A program made the position numbers and the translations under genes. Below the pieces are notes generated by a model. It was not told where the DNA came from. It saw only the letters and a list, made by a program, of their open reading frames with translations, and ran no database searches. A stretch of DNA of 64,000 nucleotides. It comes from Fictibacillus macauensis ZFHKF-1. GTDB taxonomy: Bacteria; Bacillota; Bacilli; Bacillales; Fictibacillaceae. This document shows positions 24,024 to 37,172 of this stretch, in pieces. Each line of letters opens with the position of its first letter. Position 1 is the first letter of the stretch. Location of the stretch: positions 310,001 to 374,000 of the forward strand of contig NZ_AKKV01000020.1 in assembly GCF_000269865.1 (NCBI RefSeq), written 5' to 3'.

Positions 24024-25514
24024 ATGATGAACCAAGTTCCGGAAGCATGTATCGTCTTGTTTGGAGCAACAGGCGACCTAGCTCACCGCAAACTCTACCC
24101 TGCTCTCTTCCAATTGTACCAAAAGGATAAGCTAAACGAAAAGTTTGCTGTCATTGGTACGGGCCGAAAAGAGCTAACAAGTGAACAATTTCAGGAAGAG
24201 GTACGCCAGTCTGTAGACCCTAACGGTAAATATGCACAAGAGACAGTCGATACATTTAGCTCTCATTTTTACTTCATCCCAATGGATGTTTCTGATTCAC
24301 AAAGTTATCGCGAGCTAAAAGAACTAGCTGACGAACTAGACAGCAAGTATGACCTCGGTGGTAACCGTATGTACTACTTATCAATGGCACCACGCTTTTT
24401 CGGAACGATTCCAACGTTCTTAAAGCAAGAAGGCCTAACAGAAACAGATGGTTGGCAACGTCTTGTTATCGAAAAACCTTTCGGACATGACCTTCAATCA
24501 GCAACTGAACTAAATGAACAGTTGTTACAAAGCTTCCCTGAAGAAAGCATTTACCGTATTGACCACTATCTTGGAAAAGAAATGGTACAAAACATTCAAG
24601 TGATTCGTTTCGGTAATGCAATCTTTGAATCCATCTGGAATAACAAGTACATTTCTTCTGTACAAATTACCGCTAGTGAAACACTCGGTGTAGAAGATCG
24701 TGCGTCTTACTACGAGAAATCTGGAGCCATTTTAGATATGCTTCAAAACCACATGCTTCAAATGGCAATGATGGTAGCGATGGAACCACCAGGAGGACTT
24801 GATCCTAAACTAATTCGCGATGAAAAAGTAAAAGTATTACGTTCTCTTCGCTTCTATAATGAAGATGAAGTAGCGAAAAACATTATTCGCGGCCAATATA
24901 AAGAAGGTACGATGAATGGCAAAGAAGTACCTGCTTACGTAAATGAAGACAACGTTGATCCACAATCAAAAACAGATACATTTGTCGCAGCACGTGTCTT
25001 TATTGATAACTTCCGCTGGGCAGGCGTACCATTCTACTTGCGTACGGGTAAACGACTAGCGACAAAAGCAACAGAGATTGTTGTTCAATTTAAAAAAGGA
25101 CCAATGGCTCTTTATCATGAAAACAGTGATAACGATCAACCGAATTTGTTACGCATTCACGTTCAACCAGATGAAGGCTTAAGCTTATCACTCAACGCGA
25201 AGCCACAAGGAGATTACCCAACACTCCTTCCAATCGATATGAGCTACTGCAATAACTGTGAAAACGAAATGAATACACCAGAAGCGTATGAAAAATTAAT
25301 GTACGACTGCCTCGTTGGTGATTCTACGTACTTTACACGTTGGGATGAAGTAGCACTATCATGGGAATTCATTGATGGTATTACAAACGCATGGAAAAAC
25401 AAAGACATTCCACTGTACAAATATACATCTGGAACAATGGGACCACTCGAAGCAGAAGAACTTCTTAATGAAGATGGCTACACATGGTGGAACCCAACTA
25501 CAGTAAAACGCTAA
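24024..25514 (+). CDS. zwf: Glucose-6-phosphate 1-dehydrogenase
   Basis: 496 aa; first step of the oxidative pentose phosphate route, making NADPH. Nucleotide loop VLFGATGDLAHRKL (residues 11-24), substrate block RIDHYLGKEMVQN, and RWAGVPFYLRTGKRL. Start ATG 24024 follows GTGAGGACTGATTTTTATT, a rather distant ribosome site; the second codon is also ATG and could be used. Followed by its own terminator and then by the accessory membrane-protein region. It works with tkt, found later in the window, in the pentose phosphate pathway. Confidence 0.96.
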   Translation: MMNQVPEACIVLFGATGDLAHRKLYPALFQLYQKDKLNEKFAVIGTGRKELTSEQFQEEVRQSVDPNGKYAQETVDTFSSHFYFIPMDVSDSQSYRELKELADELDSKYDLGGNRMYYLSMAPRFFGTIPTFLKQEGLTETDGWQRLVIEKPFGHDLQSATELNEQLLQSFPEESIYRIDHYLGKEMVQNIQVIRFGNAIFESIWNNKYISSVQITASETLGVEDRASYYEKSGAILDMLQNHMLQMAMMVAMEPPGGLDPKLIRDEKVKVLRSLRFYNEDEVAKNIIRGQYKEGTMNGKEVPAYVNEDNVDPQSKTDTFVAARVFIDNFRWAGVPFYLRTGKRLATKATEIVVQFKKGPMALYHENSDNDQPNLLRIHVQPDEGLSLSLNAKPQGDYPTLLPIDMSYCNNCENEMNTPEAYEKLMYDCLVGDSTYFTRWDEVALSWEFIDGITNAWKNKDIPLYKYTSGTMGPLEAEELLNEDGYTWWNPTTVKR

Positions 25515-25536
25515 GACGTTGATGAAGTAGATAGAG

Positions 25537-25580
25537 AAAAGGCGCCAAATCCTTACGGAGGACTGGCGCCTTTTTATTTT
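25537..25580. terminator. Terminator of zwf
   Basis: AAAGGCGCCA pairs with TGGCGCCTTT, then a T run. Its right arm and tail reappear at 28334-28352 next to another copy of the following gene, marking one edge of a duplication. Confidence 0.9.
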
Positions 25581-25597
25581 TTTAAAGTTGTATACTT

Positions 25598-25936
25598 TCA
25601 TGACCAGCCAAATGTTCTTCCAAGAAATTTTACGAAAGAATATAATACGAAATAAATAATGGTTGCAATAATGGAATATACACTTAGATAGCCTACTAAA
25701 TACACACGTTTCATGAACCAATTTCGTTTTTTCACTCTAAGACCTGACCAATAAGCAACTCCTATAAATGACGCCGTTACAATATTAACTGTTTTCTCAA
25801 AAATATTCTCTGGATCCGGAAACGTACTCCATTCATACCAGTCCATCATAGAATCGTAGACGAGCAACATCGCCAAAAAGTAGGATACTTGTGTTCCTAA
25901 AACCACCATAATACCAATTCTGATTAACTCTACCAT
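25598..25936 (-). CDS. Three-helix membrane protein, paralogue A
   Basis: 112 aa, not recognised. Three hydrophobic helices (about 5-27, 50-68, 80-103). Between helices 1 and 2 lies the strictly conserved MMDWYEWSTFPDPENIFEKTVN-type segment, and before helix 3 a basic RVKKRNWFMKR. It is very similar to paralogue D at 28357-28695, including the C-terminus SFVKFLGRTFGWS. Start ATG 25936 after AAAGGAGTCACT. No signal peptide or known domain. A membrane role is certain from composition; anything further is speculation. Confidence 0.75.
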   Translation of the reverse strand: MVELIRIGIMVVLGTQVSYFLAMLLVYDSMMDWYEWSTFPDPENIFEKTVNIVTASFIGVAYWSGLRVKKRNWFMKRVYLVGYLSVYSIIATIIYFVLYSFVKFLGRTFGWS

Positions 25937-25951
25937 AGTGACTCCTTTAGC

Positions 25952-26002
25952 TTTCTTTTGCTAGTTCTTTAATCAAATTTGAAGAAAATAATCGAACCCC
26001 AT
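25952..26002 (-). pseudogene. 3' stump of a second copy of the 272-aa gene
   Basis: About 50 bp nearly identical to the 3' end of the gene at 28706-29524 (encoding the end LFSSNLIKELAKE). It lies in the same place relative to paralogue A as the full gene does to paralogue D. The homology ends abruptly at 26002. It is a relic of a tandem duplication. Confidence 0.75.
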
Positions 26003-26204
26003 CCGTGTTTTTTATTATCTTATTAGACAAATATAATAGATTTGTCTCATAATTTTATAGTTAATAGTTGCAACAACAATATACCTACCCTATTAGATAC
26101 ATCCACTTCTTCCATCTCAAACCCACCCAGTCCGCGATTCCAAAATAATAACGGTAAAAAATTTATAGTTTTGTCGTATATGTTTATGTAGGAAAAAATA
26201 GGTA

Positions 26205-26355
26205 GCTTGTAAACCTGCCCGATATACTATTCCAATAATAAAGAGGTTAAGAACTTAACCGATTTTCAAAAAATACTGCATCAGGAGATGTGCCCCTGTA
26301 TCCCCATTCATAATGAGATTGTATGAATAGTGGCAAAAAACAAGCAGCTTGGCAG
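26205..26355 (-). pseudogene. Decayed fifth copy of the three-helix membrane protein gene
   Basis: Aligns by eye with the middle of paralogue B: TAAACCTGCCCGATATACTA here against TAAACCTGCCCAATATGCTA in B. The conserved DWYEW-FPDP region follows, in altered form (CATCAGGAGATGTGCCCCTG, CCCCATTCATAA). Frameshifts and point changes remove any open frame. No ribosome site or start is left. Confidence 0.7.
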
Positions 26356-26378
26356 TAAAATCTTTAAAATAATTCAAC

Positions 26379-26711
26379 TCAGATGATGTTCCATTCAATA
26401 TACTTAAGCACAGCATTTAGTAATTTATAAATGATCACAGCAAGAATTGTGTACATTGCTAAATACCCAATTAAATAAAACGGTCTCAAATACCATTTAC
26501 GTTTTTTCACTTTTAAACCTGCCCAATATGCTATTCCGAAAATAAGAGCAGTTAAGAAATTCACCGTTTTCTCAAAAAAATTCCTTGGATCAGGAAAAGT
26601 GCCCCATTCATACCAATCCATCATTATATTGTATATTAAAATAAGCAAAATAAAATATGAAGCTTGTGAACCTAATATGGTTAGTATACCGATTCTGATT
26701 AACTCTGTCAT
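26379..26711 (-). CDS. Three-helix membrane protein, paralogue B
   Basis: 110 aa. Same plan as paralogue A: helix 1 about 5-27, core MMDWYEWGTFPDPRNFFEKT, helix 2 about 50-66, basic KVKKRKWYLRP, helix 3 to the C-terminus AVLKYIEWNII. The start is ATG 26711 after AAAAGGAGAAATT; the frame runs on to 26936, but that part is the remnant of an IS3-type element. Diverged most from A and D, closest to C in its C-terminus (LKYIE). Function unknown. Confidence 0.72.
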   Translation of the reverse strand: MTELIRIGILTILGSQASYFILLILIYNIMMDWYEWGTFPDPRNFFEKTVNFLTALIFGIAYWAGLKVKKRKWYLRPFYLIGYLAMYTILAVIIYKLLNAVLKYIEWNII

Positions 26712-26741
26712 AATTTCTCCTTTTATTTTGCTAATAGGGTA

Positions 26742-26944
26742 TGTCAACACCAAATTAAACAACAATTTTAAGAGCTGCGTTTCGATAACTGACAGGACTT
26801 TGATACCCAAGGGCACTACGTAGACAGATGTTATTATACCAATTGAGATCATTAAAAACTTTAAGCTCCTGGTGGTTAAGGGAAAGGAAGCGATGTTTGA
26901 AAGCCACTCATATGTAAAAAGATGGTTTATTTCCAATGACTAAG
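26742..26944 (-). mobile_element. Internally deleted IS3-family element
   Basis: Minus-strand frame encodes the end of an IS3/IS150-type transposase: FKHRFLSLNHQELKVFNDL, then NWYNNICLRSALGYQSPVSY and a stop at 26755. The end TGTCAACACCAAATTAAAC resembles an IS3 terminal repeat, and the other end carries a similar GTCA..GGAAATAAAC. Both flanks read TAGGGTA (26735-26741 and 26945-26951), possibly including a target duplication. About 200 bp remain of an element normally near 1.2-1.5 kb. Confidence 0.65.
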
Positions 26945-26960
26945 TAGGGTAATTTTAAAT

Positions 26961-26975
26961 TGATAATTATTATCA
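26961..26975. promoter_or_regulatory. Perfect Fur-type box, orphan
   Basis: TGATAATTATTATCA matches the Bacillus 7-1-7 Fur consensus TGATAATNATTATCA exactly. No intact iron gene lies beside it; the nearest frames are IS debris. It may be what is left of a lost iron-regulated gene. Confidence 0.55.
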
Positions 26976-27439
26976 ACACTAGAACAGCTTATTCACTTTT
27001 AAACGTTCTTCGATTTACGAGCTATTACATGCCATTACTAATAATTAACTTTTTATCCATCTACATGTTATTATAAAAAGAAATCCTTGTAATGTTCTCC
27101 CTAACGGCATCATCCAGCTCATTCAGAGTATGTCTCGAAAAGGAAATGGTTATGTCAACGCCATCAAGGTATAAATGCTACTTTAAAAATGAAGACTCCT
27201 ACTTGAATAAAAATGTACAAAAACTGATTTAGAGGTGATTGATGTGTATCTAGAAATGATGGCAGCACTGAATATGAATCAAAAAGTTGAGAAGACTTAC
27301 CAAAAGGCAAACAAATAATGGAGCATTAAAAAATGTAGATCAAGAAAAGTAAAATAGTAGGAAATGTGGATCGCCGAAAACTGGATACATATTTAAATGC
27401 ATTTATTCCAAAGAGAACAAGAGAAAAAACTTCTATATA
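26976..27439. other. Gene-free degenerate stretch
   Basis: AT-rich sequence with many stops in all frames. Short protein-like pieces such as VYLEMMAALNMNQKVEKTY near 27243 hint at further decayed genes but cannot be named. No promoter or terminator of note. Confidence 0.4.
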
Positions 27440-27680
27440 CGTTTCGTTTTATAGAACGCGTCAAGAACATCTCAGGCTTCAGTGGAGTTGGAAAAACGCA
27501 CCTTGTCACATCCATTCGTATTGTCGCAGAGAAAAAAGCGGACAAGCGCCTATTTCATTAAGGTCACGATACAGAATTTGAAGAAGTCATGCTTAGATAG
27601 TCGGATTAAGCATTTTACAAACTACAAACTGTTGATTACAATCAAGGAAGTTTTCTTTACAATCTAAAAATTGGAAGTTT
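27440..27680 (+). pseudogene. Remnant of an IS21-type IstB ATPase gene
   Basis: Plus strand encodes SGFSGVGKTHLVTSIRIVAE, a Walker A in the IstB style (GxxGxGKTHLA). After a frame shift it continues as DSRIKHFTNYKLLITI, recalling the KYKLLIIDEIGY segment that follows in IstB. No start, no full domain. It is a fragment of an IS21-family helper gene. Confidence 0.6.
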
Positions 27681-27824
27681 TTTGTCTTGACATTTTTGAG
27701 AGTAGACAAGAACTAGCCAACGTACGGAATTACTATGACACCAAACTTTAATCATCCCCTAACAGTGACCTAATGAAATCACCTTGTCGACCTTCAATTT
27801 ATATATTTTTATCCTATGTGCATC

Positions 27825-28151
27825 TTATAATTGCTCGATATACTTAAGAACAATATTTATTAATTTATAAGTAATTGTCGCAAGAATAATAAATAAGATG
27901 AAATATCCTACTAAATATACACGCTTCATAAACCAATTACGCTTCTTTACTCTAAGTCCTGCCCAATAAGACAATCCAAATATTAGAGCAGTTAATATAT
28001 TGACCGTTTTTTCAAAGATATTCCTCGGATCAGGAAATGTACCCCATTCATACCAATCCATCATCAAATCATACAGTAGAATAATGACTATGAAATAAGC
28101 TGCTTGGGCACTTATAATCATATATAAGCCAAGTCTAATTAACTCTATCAC
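27825..28151 (-). CDS. Three-helix membrane protein, paralogue C
   Basis: 108 aa if started at GTG 28151 after AAGGAGTGGTT; a second GTG at 28157 is possible. Core MMDWYEWGTFPDPRNIFEKT, basic RVKKRNWFMKRVYLVGY identical to A and D, C-terminus IVLKYIEQL like B. It thus mixes features of both subgroups, as if the family recombines or C is intermediate. Three predicted helices. Function unknown. Confidence 0.72.
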   Translation of the reverse strand: MIELIRLGLYMIISAQAAYFIVIILLYDLMMDWYEWGTFPDPRNIFEKTVNILTALIFGLSYWAGLRVKKRNWFMKRVYLVGYFILFIILATITYKLINIVLKYIEQL

Positions 28152-28356
28152 AACCACTCCTTAAGTTAAATTGTTCATTATTTTCAAATTTAAAAACTCA
28201 CATCCCTATCCCAGACGTGTAGTTTATTACTAATTAAAAGAAACGCCATCAAACAATCTTTTATGCATACATCAATCCCGAATCGGTGCTTTTTATAAGT
28301 ATCCAAAAATTAAGGCTACAGTTCATAAAGGAGGATTGGCGCCTTTTTATTACTTC
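28152..28356. other. Spacer with half of the zwf terminator
   Basis: No gene. Bases 28327-28352 (AAAGGAGGATTGGCGCCTTT then a T run) repeat the loop, right arm and tail of the zwf terminator at about 25556-25580. The left arm is absent, so it cannot fold. This is the duplication edge. Confidence 0.65.
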
Positions 28357-28695
28357 TCATGACCAGCCAAATGTTCTTCCAAGAAATTTAACGAAAGAAT
28401 ATAAAATGTTATATACAATGGTTGCAAAAATAGTATACACACTTAAATAGCCCACTAAATACACACGTTTCATAAACCAGTTTCTCTTTTTCACTCTAAG
28501 TCCTGCCCAATAAGCAACGCCTATAAATGACGCCGTTACAACATTAACTGTTTTCTCAAAAATATTCTCTGGATCAGGAAATGTACTCCATTCATACCAG
28601 TCCATCATAGACTCGTAGACGAGAATCATTGCAGCAAAATAGGATGCTTGTGTTGTTAAAACAACGGTAATACCAATTCTGATTAACTCTACCAT
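28357..28695 (-). CDS. Three-helix membrane protein, paralogue D
   Basis: 112 aa, very close to paralogue A (same core MMDWYEWSTFPDPENIFEKT and same end FVKFLGRTFGWS); changes cluster in helix 1. Start ATG 28695 after AAAGGAGACGGT. It begins 10 bp after the 272-aa gene ends, so the two form an operon, and this is probably the ancestral arrangement. Predicted three membrane helices. Unrecognised family. Confidence 0.75.
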   Translation of the reverse strand: MVELIRIGITVVLTTQASYFAAMILVYESMMDWYEWSTFPDPENIFEKTVNVVTASFIGVAYWAGLRVKKRNWFMKRVYLVGYLSVYTIFATIVYNILYSFVKFLGRTFGWS

Positions 28696-28705
28696 ACCGT
28701 CTCCT

Positions 28706-29524
28706 TTATAATTCTTTAGCTAATTCTTTTATCAAATTCGATGAAAATAATCGAACCCCATACAAAATCTCATCCCATGTTTCCTCATGAGCTAAATGTA
28801 TTTTCACAGGTACTTCTTTTTCGTGTTCATATTCCGTTAACCAGACGCCGTTCGGGGCATAAAAGAAATAAGCGCCATTCAGAAGTTGCAATTGTCCCCC
28901 TTCATCGTATGAAAGAACACATATACTTTCTCTTGCATGATAATTGGTATGTAAGTCAACCATGAATTTTTCAAATGACATTTTTTCTAAGGATGTGCCA
29001 GTAAAACTTTTCTCTACTTTTTTTTGTTTTTTAGGGTTACAAATAAGGTCGAATTCCTTGTCACTTAAATAAAATATAGCATCATACTCATTTTCGATAA
29101 AAGAATAGGCGTAAAACTCTTTTAGAACCTCAGGAATCTCTACTTCTGATATATAAGCAAAATTATGTATAATTTCATCGTCAATATACTGGTATAACCA
29201 TGTATCTTCTTTTACATAGCGTAGCACCAATGTCGCTTTTTTCCATTCATTCGTTGCGCGGATCATGTAACGATAATTGCTATACACTTTTAAAAAAGTC
29301 ATGATTTCTTCACTGATCGGATTTAACTCCTTTTTATGCTTCTCTTCATCCCAAATTCCCTTCATTCGGAGCTGATTGACGGTAGAATTAAAAATGGCTA
29401 CAAGCTCTCTTTCACCTTTAGGTTTAATGAAGTCATGAATCATAATACGTGATTCGTCATCAAATTCGGCTGTGCTTAATAAAACGCCTAATTCTTCACT
29501 TGTCATTGAAATAATAGTGTCCAT
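28706..29524 (-). CDS. Uncharacterised 272-aa soluble protein
   Basis: Not recognised with confidence. The N-terminus MDTIISMTSEELGVLLSTAEF is helical, followed by alternating strands and helices. The C-terminus ends in a helix (ILYGVRLFSSNLIKELAKEL). No signal peptide, membrane helix or catalytic motif. The general layout (N-terminal helix LSxEEL, mixed sheet, C-terminal helical end) recalls EspG-like chaperones of type VII secretion, but this is a weak resemblance. Start ATG 29524 after AAAAGGAGAAGGAT. Co-transcribed with the membrane paralogue D. A 50 bp stump of a second copy persists near 25.97 kb. Confidence 0.6.
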   Translation of the reverse strand: MDTIISMTSEELGVLLSTAEFDDESRIMIHDFIKPKGERELVAIFNSTVNQLRMKGIWDEEKHKKELNPISEEIMTFLKVYSNYRYMIRATNEWKKATLVLRYVKEDTWLYQYIDDEIIHNFAYISEVEIPEVLKEFYAYSFIENEYDAIFYLSDKEFDLICNPKKQKKVEKSFTGTSLEKMSFEKFMVDLHTNYHARESICVLSYDEGGQLQLLNGAYFFYAPNGVWLTEYEHEKEVPVKIHLAHEETWDEILYGVRLFSSNLIKELAKEL

Positions 29525-29832
29525 ATCCTTCTCCTTTTCAAACTAGATTTACTTCCACTAAAAGACCACATTCTTACCTCAACCACTATTCGAAGATTTC
29601 ACACGATTTCTTTAAAGTGAGAGTTAATTTCCTCACCTTTCATTACTAGCACTCATCAAACAGGGTTTGCATAGCTCTTCTCATATGTTAAAAAACTCAT
29701 TATTGTATGAGAAAATAAAATCCCATGTAAAACTTTACCTCTGTTTTATAGTATCATTTTCGAAAATCTTTCATGAATAGTGCTATGTATCCATCTTTCA
29801 ACGAATTTAGTGCTCTTTTTCTTTTCAATCCA
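29525..29832. other. Intergenic region upstream of the 272-aa gene
   Basis: AT-rich, no open frame of note. It should hold the promoter of the 272-aa gene on the minus strand; no convincing -35/-10 pair was picked out. Confidence 0.35.
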
Positions 29833-29879
29833 CAAAAAAAAAGGCTGTTGAGTTATTCTTTAACTCAACACCCTTTTCC
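29833..29879 (-). terminator. Terminator of the MFS gene
   Basis: TGTTGAGTTA pairs with TAACTCAACA; the nine-base A run to its left gives T on the minus strand. Ends 3 bp from the MFS stop codon. Confidence 0.85.
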
Positions 29880-29881
29880 AA

Positions 29882-31123
29882 CTAATGAACAGCGGGTTTA
29901 AATGCTTTTTTCGTCGTATCTGATTTCTCACTTTTTTCAGGCTTAATGGCAAAAAACGCTAAACATGCCGCTACGATACTAATTCCTGATGAAGTGTAAA
30001 AGACCATGGCGTGATCACCTTTCATAATGATGGCATAGATCGGTGGTCCAAGAGCAACACCAACAAAACGCATGGAACTATATAATGAGGTAATGGTGCC
30101 TCGTTCTTCTTTTTCAATGCCTTCTGTTATTAAAGCATCTAAGCACGGTAGGGCGGCACCGAGCCCCACTCCACTTATAAATAAAATCCCTAGTAAAAAA
30201 TACAACCCTTCCGTAAACGTAACCGAAACGAGCGAAATAGCTAGCAATAAAATACCGCTAAAAATGAGCCATTTCATGACTTGCTTATTTTGACCTATTT
30301 TCTTTCCGGCAATATAAGAAGAGAGCGATAATGCCACTAACGGAACAGCTAACACAAGCCCTTTCTTAATGCCATTAATGTGATAGCGCTCTTCCAGTGT
30401 TGTAGATAAATAAAATAACACACCAAAAAGCACAAACATGACAATACCACCGATAAAAAAGATGGCGAGTAACCAGCGCGTATTATTTTTAAAGGTCTTT
30501 TTAAAGTTACTAATAAACGTTTTAAACGGCGGCGGTTCTTTACTCTCTTTTTGTGGTGATTTTACTAAAAAGCCGACAAGAACGATAGAAATGGCACAAA
30601 AAATCGGAATAAACCAAAACGGTAAATGCCAAATCCACGTTGCCAATGCGGCCCCTATAATGGGACTCATCACTTTTCCAAACGTATTACTCGTTTCAAT
30701 TAAGCCGAGACCCGCACTCACTTCTTTTTCGTCTTTAAACATATCCCCTACTAATGGCATAACGACAGGGGCCGCTCCAGCTGAGCCAATTCCTTGCAGA
30801 AGACGGCCGACTAAAATAATGTAATAAGGATGCGCTAATTGCCAAGAAGCCCACCCCGTCACAAGGCCACCGATGCCGGCGATCACTAAACTTGGAATAA
30901 TGACTTTTTTTCGCCCGATGCGATCGGATAAATACCCTGCAATCGGAATTAATAAAATGGCAACGACTGAATAGACCGTAATAATCATCGATACGCGAAA
31001 CGCAGAAATATGCAATTCTTTTTCAATGGAAGGTAGCACGGGAATTAACATCGAATTCCCTAGCGTCATAACAAGAGGAATGGATGCAAGTGCAACCAAG
31101 TCCCATTTCTTTTTCGATTCCAT
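29882..31123 (-). CDS. MFS transporter, drug-efflux type
   Basis: 413 aa, 12 predicted membrane helices. Loop 2-3 signature GYLSDRIGRKKVIIPS, and the antiporter-type motif region GRLLQGIGSAGAAPVVMPLV in helix 5, typical of proton-coupled drug exporters of the DHA families. Central loop basic (KSPQKESKEPPPFKTF). The start is ATG 31123 after TTTGGAGGAGATT, not the upstream 31180. Divergent from patA. Similar to B. subtilis YqjV-like exporters by memory; substrate not deducible. Confidence 0.85.
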   Translation of the reverse strand: MESKKKWDLVALASIPLVMTLGNSMLIPVLPSIEKELHISAFRVSMIITVYSVVAILLIPIAGYLSDRIGRKKVIIPSLVIAGIGGLVTGWASWQLAHPYYIILVGRLLQGIGSAGAAPVVMPLVGDMFKDEKEVSAGLGLIETSNTFGKVMSPIIGAALATWIWHLPFWFIPIFCAISIVLVGFLVKSPQKESKEPPPFKTFISNFKKTFKNNTRWLLAIFFIGGIVMFVLFGVLFYLSTTLEERYHINGIKKGLVLAVPLVALSLSSYIAGKKIGQNKQVMKWLIFSGILLLAISLVSVTFTEGLYFLLGILFISGVGLGAALPCLDALITEGIEKEERGTITSLYSSMRFVGVALGPPIYAIIMKGDHAMVFYTSSGISIVAACLAFFAIKPEKSEKSDTTKKAFKPAVH

Positions 31124-31259
31124 AATCTCCTCCAAAAACGACAGTCTTTCTTTTAGTATGGAGATTACAGCGCAAGTCATACACGTAATTCACACTATTG
31201 ACTGTCATTCACAATAAAGCTACACTGAAACAACGTTTATAAAGAAAGGACGTAGCACT

Positions 31260-33527: not shown

Positions 33528-36500
33528 TTATAGCGCTTGTAAGCTTGATAGTGCTAGCTTCATTTTTTCTTTTTGTTCCGGTGAATCCATCGCCTCAATA
33601 CTATTTTGAATGTAACGAACATACTCTTTCTCGCGCTCTTGCTTTTGAGATTCAATTACATTTTCAAAAATAGCTTGATAATAATGCTCAAACACAGGAA
33701 TGCTTTGCTCTACAAATACTGCCACTTCTTGATCAAGCTGTTCATATAATCGTTCCATCATGTCTTTTTTACCATTTTGTTCAAAGAAATGGTTCGCATT
33801 TTTAAAGTCTTTAACAATATGTGGCGCCTGAGCTGGGAACGACAATGAAACCGTTGATTGCAGAGTGTCGATAGACAGTTGTTCAACTTGACTGATAAAG
33901 GCTGGTGCAACATAGCCTTGTAATACTTCGTCAAGCTCCTCATTAAAAGCCGTTACTAGCGATAACAGTTGCTTTTCTACACGCAAAGCCGTCGCTCGTG
34001 ATTCTTGTTGCAAATCAAATTCAATCATTTGATGTAATTCCTGTAAGCAGGAAGCTAAAGCTGCTTTTTGCTCACGTACTCCTCCTGTTATAACAGAAGA
34101 GTTAAACGCTTCATTAAAAAATTCCGTGAAGCGCAACATCACACGCTGTCGAACATAAAACAATAGTTCGCTTATTTCTTTGGTAAGAAGCTCACTTTGC
34201 TTCTCTTCTGAATACGCATGCAGACAACGGATTCCTTCTTGTAGCGCTCCTTGAAGTCTTGCTTTTTCTTGTTCTCGCTCTTCTTCACTTTTTTCCGCCT
34301 GCGCAATAAATTGACCTAACGTTGATTTTGCTTGTGTTAGTTGTTTATGAGCAGATGCTAACAACACTTGAGCAAGATCATGCCGCAAAAAGTGGGTAAA
34401 GGAATCATAAAATGATGGAAAGCCTGTTTTTTGCAAATACGTTGCTTCATTCTCTTCTTCGCCATAGAGTGCTGTTAATTTCCGGTGTGCTTCTTCATTG
34501 TTTTGTTGTGCAAGTAACGCATAATAGCTGGAAAGAGGAAATAACTTCGGATTTCGTATGCCAAATTGCTGCAAATTCGAAGCAACATGAGACGTAACCT
34601 CTTCTAACTCCGCTTCGTCTTGAGCTAAATCAGCGGCATTAATCATAAAGAACATCTTATCTAGCTCAAACGTATCTTTAACACGTCCTAACTGAATTAA
34701 AAATTCTCGATCTGCTGCGGAAAAAGCATGGTTATAATACGTGACATATAAAATGGCATCACTGTTTTTAATGAACTCAAAAGCAACGTTCGTATGACGC
34801 GCATTAATGGAGTCCGCTCCCGGCGTATCGACGAGTGTCACACCCATCCTCGTTAACGCACAGTCATAATACACAGCGATGCTTTCTGTAAAGCACGCCT
34901 TCTCTTCTTGTGCAACAAACGCTTGAAAGTCAGCAACAGATACAACCATTGTCGTTCCAAGTTTTTCTTTGTTTTCCGTATAACCAGCAACAACCGCTGA
35001 TAAAAATTGCAAATGCGGACGAAGAGCATCGGTTACTTTTTCTTTTTTTTGTTGAGCGGCTCGTATAGCCTCATCTAGTGTTTCTCCTTTTAGTCCAAAA
35101 GGAGCTAACGATTGATTTAATTCAATTAAGAGCGCCTGTTCTTCCTTAAATGTAATAAGCGCTGTTCCATGTTGATGCTCTGCTGTTGGCGGAAGAATAC
35201 GATTAATCGTCGCCGTTGTTGGATTTGGTGATACAGGAAGTAACTTTTCACCAATAAGGGCATTTGCAAAGGAAGACTTCCCAGCTGAAAAGGCTCCGAA
35301 CAATGACACCGTAAACGAACGCTGTGTAATCCGCGAAGAAGCTTGTTGCAAGGCTTCTGCAATGGTCGGTAATAACTGCGCATCAGCAAGAACGCTAGAC
35401 GCTTTCTGTAACGTCGTTGCTTCTTGCTCTACATCTTGTTTCTCTGTAAGTGGTTGTTCTTCTACCACCCCTTCAACTGCCTCAGGAGAAGCACTTGCGG
35501 TCATTTGTGAGAGGTCTTCTAAGGTCGCTACATTCGTTTCAATCGCAAATAATGCCTCATTAGCATGCTGTAGAGCCTGTTCATTAACGTGACGCTCATA
35601 TAAGGTGACAAGCCATTCTTCTTGTATGGCGTTCCAACGATCTCTAATGCTACGCACACGTTGTAATGCATCAAGTGCCTGTTCTTCTTTTAAAATCATC
35701 TCTTTTAAAGCTGTTATCTCGTTTTCATTTTCTGCTTTTACTACCTGTTGAATGGCTTGAATTTCATTTCGATAATGAGCGGTATACATTTTTTGAATAG
35801 CAGCGGTAACATCATTACAATATTGAAGCACATAGTTGCCAGATAAGGACGCCCCACTCTGAACGAGCGAACGCAAGTGATCTGGTGTCAATTCCGGCTC
35901 ACTCTGCACTGTTTGTTGATAAGCATGAAAATAATCTTTCAAGTGCCAACTAATTTGTGTTTTAATATTTTCCAGTACACTTTCATAAAATACTTGTAAA
36001 CGTTCGTTTCGTGCCTGTTCTGTTTTCTTTTGAGAAAATAAAAAGCCTACTTTAAAGCCCGCTTGCAAGCTTTCGATATAGTGCGTTGCTGCTTCACGCG
36101 TTTGAAAAGGCATTAAAATTGCCGTATCAAGAATTTCTTTAAACGTTTTAGCTGCCTCTTTACTTTTTTCTTCACTTTCACTGGTAAGCTTCGTAAGTTG
36201 CTTCTGATTGGCTTCGAAATTCTGTTGTAATTCAGCCGCATCATACGATTCAGCGATCACAAATGCCTCAGCATGCGTCTCTTCTTCATGAGCTAAGCTT
36301 GCTTGCACTGTTTTTTGAATCATCAGTTCTGTTTCTTTTAAAGCGTTTTCTTTAATCCATTCGTCTTTTTCTAAATAAAACTTCTGAAACAATGTTTTGA
36401 TGTCGGCTAACTGATTGCCCTTATGAGTTGGCTCTTTAATCGTCGTAAAGAAAATCTCTTCTGGTTCGATGTCCCACGATCGAAAGCCCGCTATCACGTT

Positions 36501-37172
36501 TTCTTGAAATTGTGCAAACGATATCTCTTCTTCATTATGCTTATCAATTTGATTAACGATTAAATATAATTTCTTTCCTTGTTCTTTTAATAAGCGTACG
36601 AATGAGAAATTCAGTTGTGATAATACATGATTATAGTCCATCACATAAAAAACGACATCAGCCATATGTAAGGCGGACTCAGTCGCCACTTTATGGGCAT
36701 CATCAGTAGAGTCAATTCCAGGCGTATCGAACACAGCCACGTTTGGAGGTAAGAGCCCTTCACCGACTCCGATTTCAATACTTTCTACATCATCTCCATT
36801 TTTGGCCCATTTTTTCACATCATCTAAATTAACGGGTGGCGCAAGTCGGACATGACCTTTATCTTTAATTTTTACAGAAATGAATGATTCTCCACTTCGC
36901 AATTTGACAACGTTTGCACTTGTCGGAATCGGACTAGATGGCAAAATATTTTCACCCATAATTTCATTAATCATTGTAGATTTTCCAGCTGAAAAATGCC
37001 CACAAAAAGCAATCGCAAACTCTTGCTGTACTAGTTTCTCATAAAGCTCTAGCACAGCAGGCGCTTCCGTAGGATAGGATTGTTCTTCTAATTTTGTATA
37101 CACAGAAGCAACAGCAGAGGCTACTTCTTTATAGTGAGGATCTTGTATGACTGTATCTTTTGCGTTTTTCAT
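33528..37172 (-). CDS. dynA: Tandem bacterial dynamin DynA
   Basis: 1214 aa: two dynamin-like proteins fused in one chain. First GTPase: P-loop GHFSAGKS (58-65), switch PTSANVVKL, DTPGIDSTDD, NQID. Second GTPase, from about residue 620: GAFSAGKSSF, PTTATINRI, DTPGADSINA. Each is followed by long helical stalk regions; the C-terminal tail is charged. B. subtilis DynA (YpbR) has the same double layout and acts in membrane fusion and membrane-stress or phage protection. Start ATG 37172 after TGAGATTGGGAGAGTTTC, a modest ribosome site. Monocistronic. Confidence 0.94.
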   Translation of the reverse strand: MKNAKDTVIQDPHYKEVASAVASVYTKLEEQSYPTEAPAVLELYEKLVQQEFAIAFCGHFSAGKSTMINEIMGENILPSSPIPTSANVVKLRSGESFISVKIKDKGHVRLAPPVNLDDVKKWAKNGDDVESIEIGVGEGLLPPNVAVFDTPGIDSTDDAHKVATESALHMADVVFYVMDYNHVLSQLNFSFVRLLKEQGKKLYLIVNQIDKHNEEEISFAQFQENVIAGFRSWDIEPEEIFFTTIKEPTHKGNQLADIKTLFQKFYLEKDEWIKENALKETELMIQKTVQASLAHEEETHAEAFVIAESYDAAELQQNFEANQKQLTKLTSESEEKSKEAAKTFKEILDTAILMPFQTREAATHYIESLQAGFKVGFLFSQKKTEQARNERLQVFYESVLENIKTQISWHLKDYFHAYQQTVQSEPELTPDHLRSLVQSGASLSGNYVLQYCNDVTAAIQKMYTAHYRNEIQAIQQVVKAENENEITALKEMILKEEQALDALQRVRSIRDRWNAIQEEWLVTLYERHVNEQALQHANEALFAIETNVATLEDLSQMTASASPEAVEGVVEEQPLTEKQDVEQEATTLQKASSVLADAQLLPTIAEALQQASSRITQRSFTVSLFGAFSAGKSSFANALIGEKLLPVSPNPTTATINRILPPTAEHQHGTALITFKEEQALLIELNQSLAPFGLKGETLDEAIRAAQQKKEKVTDALRPHLQFLSAVVAGYTENKEKLGTTMVVSVADFQAFVAQEEKACFTESIAVYYDCALTRMGVTLVDTPGADSINARHTNVAFEFIKNSDAILYVTYYNHAFSAADREFLIQLGRVKDTFELDKMFFMINAADLAQDEAELEEVTSHVASNLQQFGIRNPKLFPLSSYYALLAQQNNEEAHRKLTALYGEEENEATYLQKTGFPSFYDSFTHFLRHDLAQVLLASAHKQLTQAKSTLGQFIAQAEKSEEEREQEKARLQGALQEGIRCLHAYSEEKQSELLTKEISELLFYVRQRVMLRFTEFFNEAFNSSVITGGVREQKAALASCLQELHQMIEFDLQQESRATALRVEKQLLSLVTAFNEELDEVLQGYVAPAFISQVEQLSIDTLQSTVSLSFPAQAPHIVKDFKNANHFFEQNGKKDMMERLYEQLDQEVAVFVEQSIPVFEHYYQAIFENVIESQKQEREKEYVRYIQNSIEAMDSPEQKEKMKLALSSLQAL

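Follow-up and report, generated by a model that had tools for sequence, protein, structure and literature searches.

What is an array of small membrane protein genes doing between zwf and a transporter gene in Fictibacillus macauensis ZFHKF-1? We analyzed a stretch of 64,000 nucleotides (nt) of this genome, hereafter the window (contig NZ_AKKV01000020.1, positions 310,001 to 374,000), in which 4,367 nt separate the stop codons of zwf and a major facilitator superfamily (MFS) transporter gene. This insert encodes several copies of a three-helix membrane protein, which we name TM3, and a soluble protein of 272 amino acids (aa), which we name P272. The locus is very probably an orphan immunity island against a membrane-active toxin exported by the type VIIb secretion system (T7SSb), in which P272 would be the chaperone or cytoplasmic guard of the toxin. 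The insert most likely protects the bacterium from a membrane-damaging toxin secreted by related bacteria. The central features are:

25515..29881, no strand: whole insert, from the zwf stop to the MFS transporter stop
28706..29524, minus strand: P272, predicted EspG-fold chaperone or cytoplasmic guard of a glycine-zipper toxin (predicted structure)
28357..28695, minus strand: TM3 copy D, a predicted immunity protein of the membrane, starting 10 nt after P272 ends
27825..28151, minus strand: TM3 copy C, mosaic of A/D and B types (listed frame 27825-28157)
26379..26711, minus strand: TM3 copy B, groups with Fictibacillus TM3 copies (tree support 0.976)
25598..25936, minus strand: TM3 copy A, sister of D (alignment, dN/dS comparison, tree)

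The connection to a toxin comes from operons in relatives. Three Fictibacillus genomes (one of them F. nanhaiensis) encode P272 relatives that are 70-72% identical to the window P272, and in all three loci the operon consists of a YwqH-like gene, a DUF5344 gene, an LXG toxin gene, P272 and four TM3 genes. A neighborhood analysis for LXG toxins had been proposed when the window was first read from its sequence. The product of the toxin gene, 530 aa long, combines an LXG domain (E about 1e-44) with a glycine zipper. TM3 and P272 adjoin an LXG toxin and small helical partners at loci L022, L023, L024 and others.

An initial search of 149 related genomes with P272 had given matches in 13 at E <= 0.01, several of which were weak. 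In a profile search of 397 genomes of the order, P272 was found in 64, TM3 in 35 and both in 24, against 5.6 expected (hypergeometric p 2e-13). When six genomes that had supplied profile rows were excluded, 18 of 29 TM3 genomes carried P272, with 4.3 expected (p 1e-9). Based on coordinates, TM3 and P272 lie within 5 kb of each other in 22 of the 24 genomes, although three of these cases are weak or broken matches (G088, G157 and G221). The sequence-only reading had made its case depend on the two proteins occurring together elsewhere, as they do in 24 of the 35 TM3 genomes. In a phylum-wide sample of 398 genomes, the only sound TM3 match was in the window genome, and the other was a 34-residue stretch with stop codons.

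To describe the toxins, 51 regions were gene-mapped, which gave 40 loci with full-length P272; the P272 neighborhoods of 35 of the 64 P272-positive genomes were covered, plus two from the first search. In 37 of these 40 loci a same-strand candidate toxin lies 5' of P272 within 2.5 kb, its C-terminal 190 residues linked to those of the others by BLAST, while the window, L031 and L153 have no such toxin. LXG domains are present in 18 of these 37 glycine-zipper toxins and absent from 19. A profile of the toxin C-terminus, trained on 18 TM3-associated toxins (12 with LXG, 6 without; five TM3-bearing loci were left out), matched all 19 toxins outside the training set at E <= 7e-6 in a small database. 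Because this profile spans LXG and non-LXG toxins, P272 and TM3 go with the C-terminal domain and not with the N-terminal one. In a control of LXG loci chosen regardless of P272, P272 was near three of five genes with the C-terminal domain and none of 22 without it (Fisher p 0.003). The control comprised 27 loci from 64 matches in 20 of 120 genomes, and an LXG gene near a P272 match on contig C5 of G135 was not included. P272 accompanies the membrane-active end of the toxin, not the LXG end.

TM3 is also found without the rest of the operon. Eleven of 35 TM3 regions have no full-length P272, and of these, eight have no toxin gene, two have an LXG gene lacking the toxin domain and one is degenerate. 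Four of the eight orphans are in genomes of the genus Fictibacillus, with one to four TM3 genes where sister genomes carry the complete operon; flanking genes share 88-98% identity with those of the sisters, and in each of two arrays one TM3 gene is interrupted. Remnants of toxin, partner or P272 were detected at none of these four sites at E <= 0.01, and the four genomes have no P272 match anywhere, whereas the window retains P272. The immunity role that had been proposed for the array gains support from both settings, i.e., TM3 beside toxin operons in relatives and TM3 in toxin-less arrays.

A comparison of two Fictibacillus operons (G027 and G025) adds to this. The YwqH-like protein, the DUF5344 protein, the fourth TM3 and toxin residues 1-182 are identical, while differences between the toxins are dense at 441-461, next to the zipper (455-491), with others at 235-245 and at scattered positions. 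P272 is 90.4% identical between the two, TM3-2 and TM3-3 90-91%, TM3-1 68.8% and TM3-4 100%. A swap of the toxin tip together with the neighboring immunity allele would be a simple explanation of this pattern.

The host has its own secretion machinery. Pfam places genes for WXG100, EssA, YukD, YukC, EssC (1831 bits) and DUF5081 together in a T7SSb locus; a 1062-aa gene product of EsaA size was not confirmed by Pfam and matched only ABC2_membrane_3 below its cut-off. Three host LXG genes score over the cut-off and none adjoins P272. The first, for an HNH nuclease toxin, lies on contig C22 (L037:7248-10484) in a complete nuclease module of YwqH-like, DUF5344 and LXG with Tox-HNH-HHH; the adjacent Syd-type (SUKH-2) gene is the likely immunity gene. 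The second (contig C4:135-2120, L036) is interrupted, as the LXG frame stops at 818 and a PT-TG pre-toxin segment lies in another frame, with a transposase-like gene nearby. The third is truncated where contig C50 ends. The C-terminal toxin domain encoded by the Fictibacillus operons has no credible match in the host genome (best E 0.249), with the C-terminus of the C50 LXG gene unseen. As the assembly holds no copy of the toxin domain, the TM3 array would act against the toxin of other strains.

The intact TM3 copies are 108-112 aa long and open on the minus strand, each preceded by an AAGGAG motif (4/4). For copy C, the start with a well-spaced Shine-Dalgarno sequence is the GTG at 28151, which gives 108 aa. 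Three helices in the inner membrane and a length of about 113 aa also characterize the immunity proteins of the colicin E1 type. MMDWYEW-TFPDP, FEKTVN and a basic stretch ahead of the last helix are invariant in all copies, as had been noticed from the sequence, and the repeats are detectable at DNA level too. Copy A is 88% identical to D, C 58% and B 57%. The ratio of nonsynonymous to synonymous substitution rates (dN/dS) is 0.13-0.21 in all six pairs, although the synonymous rate (dS) is 1.4-1.7 in five pairs and the values are rough. This shows that the copies evolve as proteins, and they are kept under purifying selection. The earlier remark that C mixes both subgroups also held, since codons 61-93 match A/D and most remaining codons match B (maximum chi-square on 63 informative sites, permutation p 0.007).

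Across 22 TM3 proteins, the mean number of lysines and arginines is 4.55 in loop 2, compared with 1.91 in loop 1, 1.09 at the N-terminus and 0.91 at the C-terminus, and loop 1 is therefore predicted to lie outside. The only Pfam-A match of these 22 proteins at E <= 0.01 is DUF5360 in one member (E 0.0098). No DUF443, DUF5079 or DUF5080 match was found among them, the presence of these models in the Pfam copy being unchecked. NCBIfam and PADLOC gave nothing relevant for the window proteins, and PDB holds no TM3 relative by sequence or by fold; hence the searches did not place TM3 in any functionally defined group. As far as profile searches can tell, neither Pfam nor NCBIfam has a named family for TM3, and our searches of open-access literature brought up no paper describing a TM3 or P272-like protein in Fictibacillus.

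The rest of the insert records duplication and loss. P272 is followed 3' by TM3 copies D, C and B, next by a dead TM3 copy and a second P272 tail, and last by copy A. The further features and flanks are:

26206..26375, minus strand: dead TM3 copy, nearest B (alignment score)
25953..26003, minus strand: remnant of a second P272 C-terminal end, directly upstream of copy A (16/16 residues equal P272 256-271)
25539..26002, minus strand: duplicated unit, first copy (P272 tail, TM3 and terminator-like repeat; local alignment with 28312-28761; direct repeats D1-D3)
28312..28761, minus strand: duplicated unit, second copy (local alignment with 25539-26002)
27397..27561, plus strand: probable IS21-type istB remnant (PF01695, E 9e-4, 19.2 bits, below Pfam's 24.1)
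24024-25514, plus strand: zwf, left flank of the insert
29882-31180, minus strand: MFS transporter, right flank of the insert

The dead copy aligns best with B, scoring 136 where the highest of 200 shuffles reached 53, so that the count of four intact paralogues and one dead copy stands. A possible extra fragment at about 26012-26195 scores 50-54 where the shuffle maximum is 51, which is no clear excess. The second P272 tail spans 16-17 codons and had been overlooked before; its position ahead of copy A shows that a unit of P272 tail, TM3 and terminator-like repeat was duplicated. The description of the locus as scarred by insertion sequences (IS) comes down to one weak IstB_IS21 fragment below the Pfam cut-off. 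In six of six congeneric genomes only 28-39 nt separate zwf and the MFS gene, hence the insert is particular to the window genome among the seven. Its G+C content is 0.331 compared with 0.406 for the remaining window. Beyond the right flank, the window encodes a protein of 1,214 aa (33528-37172, minus strand) that has two P-loop stretches of the GKS type and presumably resembles the double dynamin DynA of Bacillus.

These remnants raise the possibility that the locus is simply decaying, i.e., that a whole toxin operon was once present in the window, the toxin and export partners were deleted, and P272 and TM3 are now being lost. The dead TM3 copy, the P272 tail and the IS remnant fit such a history, as does the retention of a P272 without a client, which a pure immunity role does not predict; furthermore, the selection seen on the retained genes may predate toxin loss. 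However, P272 and four TM3 copies are intact with working start signals, and dN/dS is low both for TM3, as given above, and for P272 (0.06-0.08 against Fictibacillus, where dS is saturated). In addition, no toxin or export-partner remnant was found in the insert, and orphan TM3 arrays recur in other genomes. We therefore regard decay as possible but clearly less probable than a functioning immunity island.

P272 is confidently predicted to adopt the EspG chaperone fold across its whole chain, which supports the earlier hunch that it is a type VII secretion chaperone. The strong structural matches are EspG structures only, at 7-10% sequence identity. The P272 profile matched no PDB chain under E 0.05, P272 has no Pfam or NCBIfam family above cut-off, and profile comparison detected no relation between it and the DUF5081 protein of the host. 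The window copy is the sole full match in the host genome, and its link to copy D was recognized from the start. Mycobacterial EspG and EsaE, whose EspG fold is predicted (PMC11217815), resemble P272 in fold, and EsaE is described as targeting EsaD to EssC (PMC10765036). According to the same review, YfjC of B. subtilis lies downstream of YfjB, a predicted pore-forming type VII toxin, and has a predicted EspG fold without sequence similarity to EspG or EsaE (PMC10765036). YfjC resembles P272 in its predicted fold and in following a predicted toxin.

Instead of being a targeting chaperone, P272 could confer immunity itself, acting in the cytoplasm as an EspG-fold antidote and sequestering the glycine zipper like the DUF5085 protein ExiB does for EsxX. 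This would fit that P272 tracks glycine-zipper toxins regardless of their N-terminus and that it remains with immunity genes here, where the toxin is missing; for EsxX, the partners described are instead ExiAB (PMC12744356). On the other hand, published work treats EspG and EsaE, the latter EspG-like by prediction, as targeting chaperones (PMC10765036; PMC11217815), and 11 of 35 TM3 regions have no P272. An antidote role alone is thus a minority possibility, and P272 is inferred by analogy to be either a targeting chaperone or an antidote of the toxin before export.

For TM3, the comparison is with membrane immunity in other systems. EsxX of S. aureus is described as a glycine-zipper LXG toxin that is toxic from both membrane sides, with ExiB (DUF5085) shielding its zipper in the cytoplasm and ExiCD protecting from outside and occurring as orphans in antitoxin islands (PMC12744356). 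In both the EsxX-ExiAB-ExiCD system and the one proposed here, an LXG toxin ends in a glycine zipper and comes with DUF5344 and DUF5082-type partners, its toxin domain has a soluble partner, and the membrane immunity proteins are also found as orphans in toxin-less strains. However, the soluble protein is DUF5085 with a GyrI-like fold there and a predicted EspG-fold protein here, and a six-helix DUF5079/DUF5080 pair there corresponds to single three-helix proteins in arrays here (PMC12744356). TspA of S. aureus is reported as a membrane-depolarizing LXG toxin with tandem, non-identical polytopic membrane immunity genes, namely ten tandem DUF443 genes of which one is demonstrated to be protective; its TsaI immunity proteins differ from TM3 in being DUF443 with five predicted helices (PMC7456083). 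TelE of Streptococcus gallolyticus is likewise described as an LXG toxin that needs a C-terminal glycine zipper for toxicity, but its antagonist TipE is a DUF5085 protein (PMC10434224). Tandem esaG and tipC are described as recombining immunity paralogues (PMC9484751), as copy C suggests for TM3, although their proteins are unrelated to TM3. Based on the EsxX and TspA literature, TM3 would be an analogue of ExiCD and TsaI that provides immunity from outside, and based on YfjC and EsaE, P272 would be a partner of the toxin before export.

A mechanism can be proposed on these grounds. In relatives, the YwqH-like and DUF5344 partners and the LXG domain would target the toxin for export, and its C-terminal glycine-zipper domain would be expected to insert in and depolarize the membrane; the rest of the operon consists of P272 and between one and eight copies of TM3. 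P272 would bind the toxin before export and keep its hydrophobic part soluble and harmless. When the toxin arrives at a neighboring cell from outside, TM3 in the cytoplasmic membrane of that cell, with the DWYEW-TFPDP--FEKTVN loop outside, might block insertion or channel assembly. Diverged TM3 copies could cover toxin variants, and recombination between copies could yield new specificities.

Several observations weigh against the immunity island. With the colicin pore-forming model PF01024, whose cut-off is 23.4 bits, the three Fictibacillus toxins score 23.0, 20.9 and 18.5, i.e., borderline in one and weaker in two, and the family is unlisted for seven other toxins scanned. The rule that picked the toxin set, a glycine zipper or an LXG domain, was loose, its zipper part triggering on 15 of 117 unrelated genes of at least 300 aa, and the toxins were joined by single-linkage BLAST of sequences rich in glycine. 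For seven of the 19 toxins outside the training set, the profile match is short and lies in the zipper or close to it; the toxin relation is therefore firm for TM3-associated toxins and loose for the rest. Two glycine-zipper LXG toxins have no detectable P272, many P272 loci have other membrane proteins such as DUF5381 instead of TM3, and TM3 is also near the two LXG genes without the glycine-zipper toxin domain (L137 and L138). P272 is seldom kept when its toxin is missing (3 of 40 loci), and no use is obvious for a chaperone that has lost its client. Finally, the G027/G025 covariation is one event.

Some loci show variations of the arrangement. Glycine-zipper LXG toxins without P272 are followed 3' by a second family of soluble proteins of 262-263 aa (L188:5406-6197 and L189:11666-12454), accompanied by larger multi-helix membrane proteins; these proteins reach the cut-off of no Pfam family, and profile comparison does not relate them to P272. 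At L025:577-4276 and similar loci, DUF5381 membrane proteins replace TM3 beside P272 and non-LXG glycine-zipper toxins, and DUF5381 is present in the B. subtilis control genome. The largest TM3 array observed, with eight matches, is found with a glycine-zipper LXG toxin at L126:8707-12700.

TM3 might alternatively be an accessory part of the toxin, such as a pore-formation partner or a membrane anchor for export, as its gene sits between toxin and P272 in many operons. This is improbable, since eight of 35 TM3 regions have no toxin and up to eight TM3 beside one toxin fit immunity. Phage defense or resistance to small bacteriocins unconnected with type VII secretion, argued earlier in general terms from small tandem membrane proteins within an insert, is highly improbable given the absence of PADLOC matches and of P272 in plasmid or phage records and the strong link to LXG and glycine-zipper toxin operons.

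An immunity island thus remains the favored explanation, and the sequence-only reading, which had guessed the right area, is partly supported. Its claim of an undescribed system needs to be divided, as the logic of tandem or orphan membrane immunity against type VII LXG toxins is already published (PMC12744356; PMC7456083; PMC9484751). What is new is the putative TM3 immunity family, the predicted EspG-fold partner and a toxin-less island that retains both. A further, rather unlikely extension is that P272 founds an EspG-fold family guarding glycine-zipper toxins inside the cell, and forms with TM3 a two-compartment immunity module that the window strain carries toxin-less. TM3 would then act in the membrane and P272 in the cytoplasm. 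Guarding by P272 would add a third solution to the two given by DUF5085 antidotes and by encapsulation, and the EspG fold, known as a targeting chaperone, would double as an antidote. Since the EspG fold travels with the membrane-active end of the toxin, the question of chaperone or antidote is directly testable. If true, our explanation would give a function to the uncurated TM3 family and to a widespread EspG-fold family (64 of 397 genomes), and the insert would clearly exemplify an immunity island placed at a precise chromosomal site that is otherwise empty.

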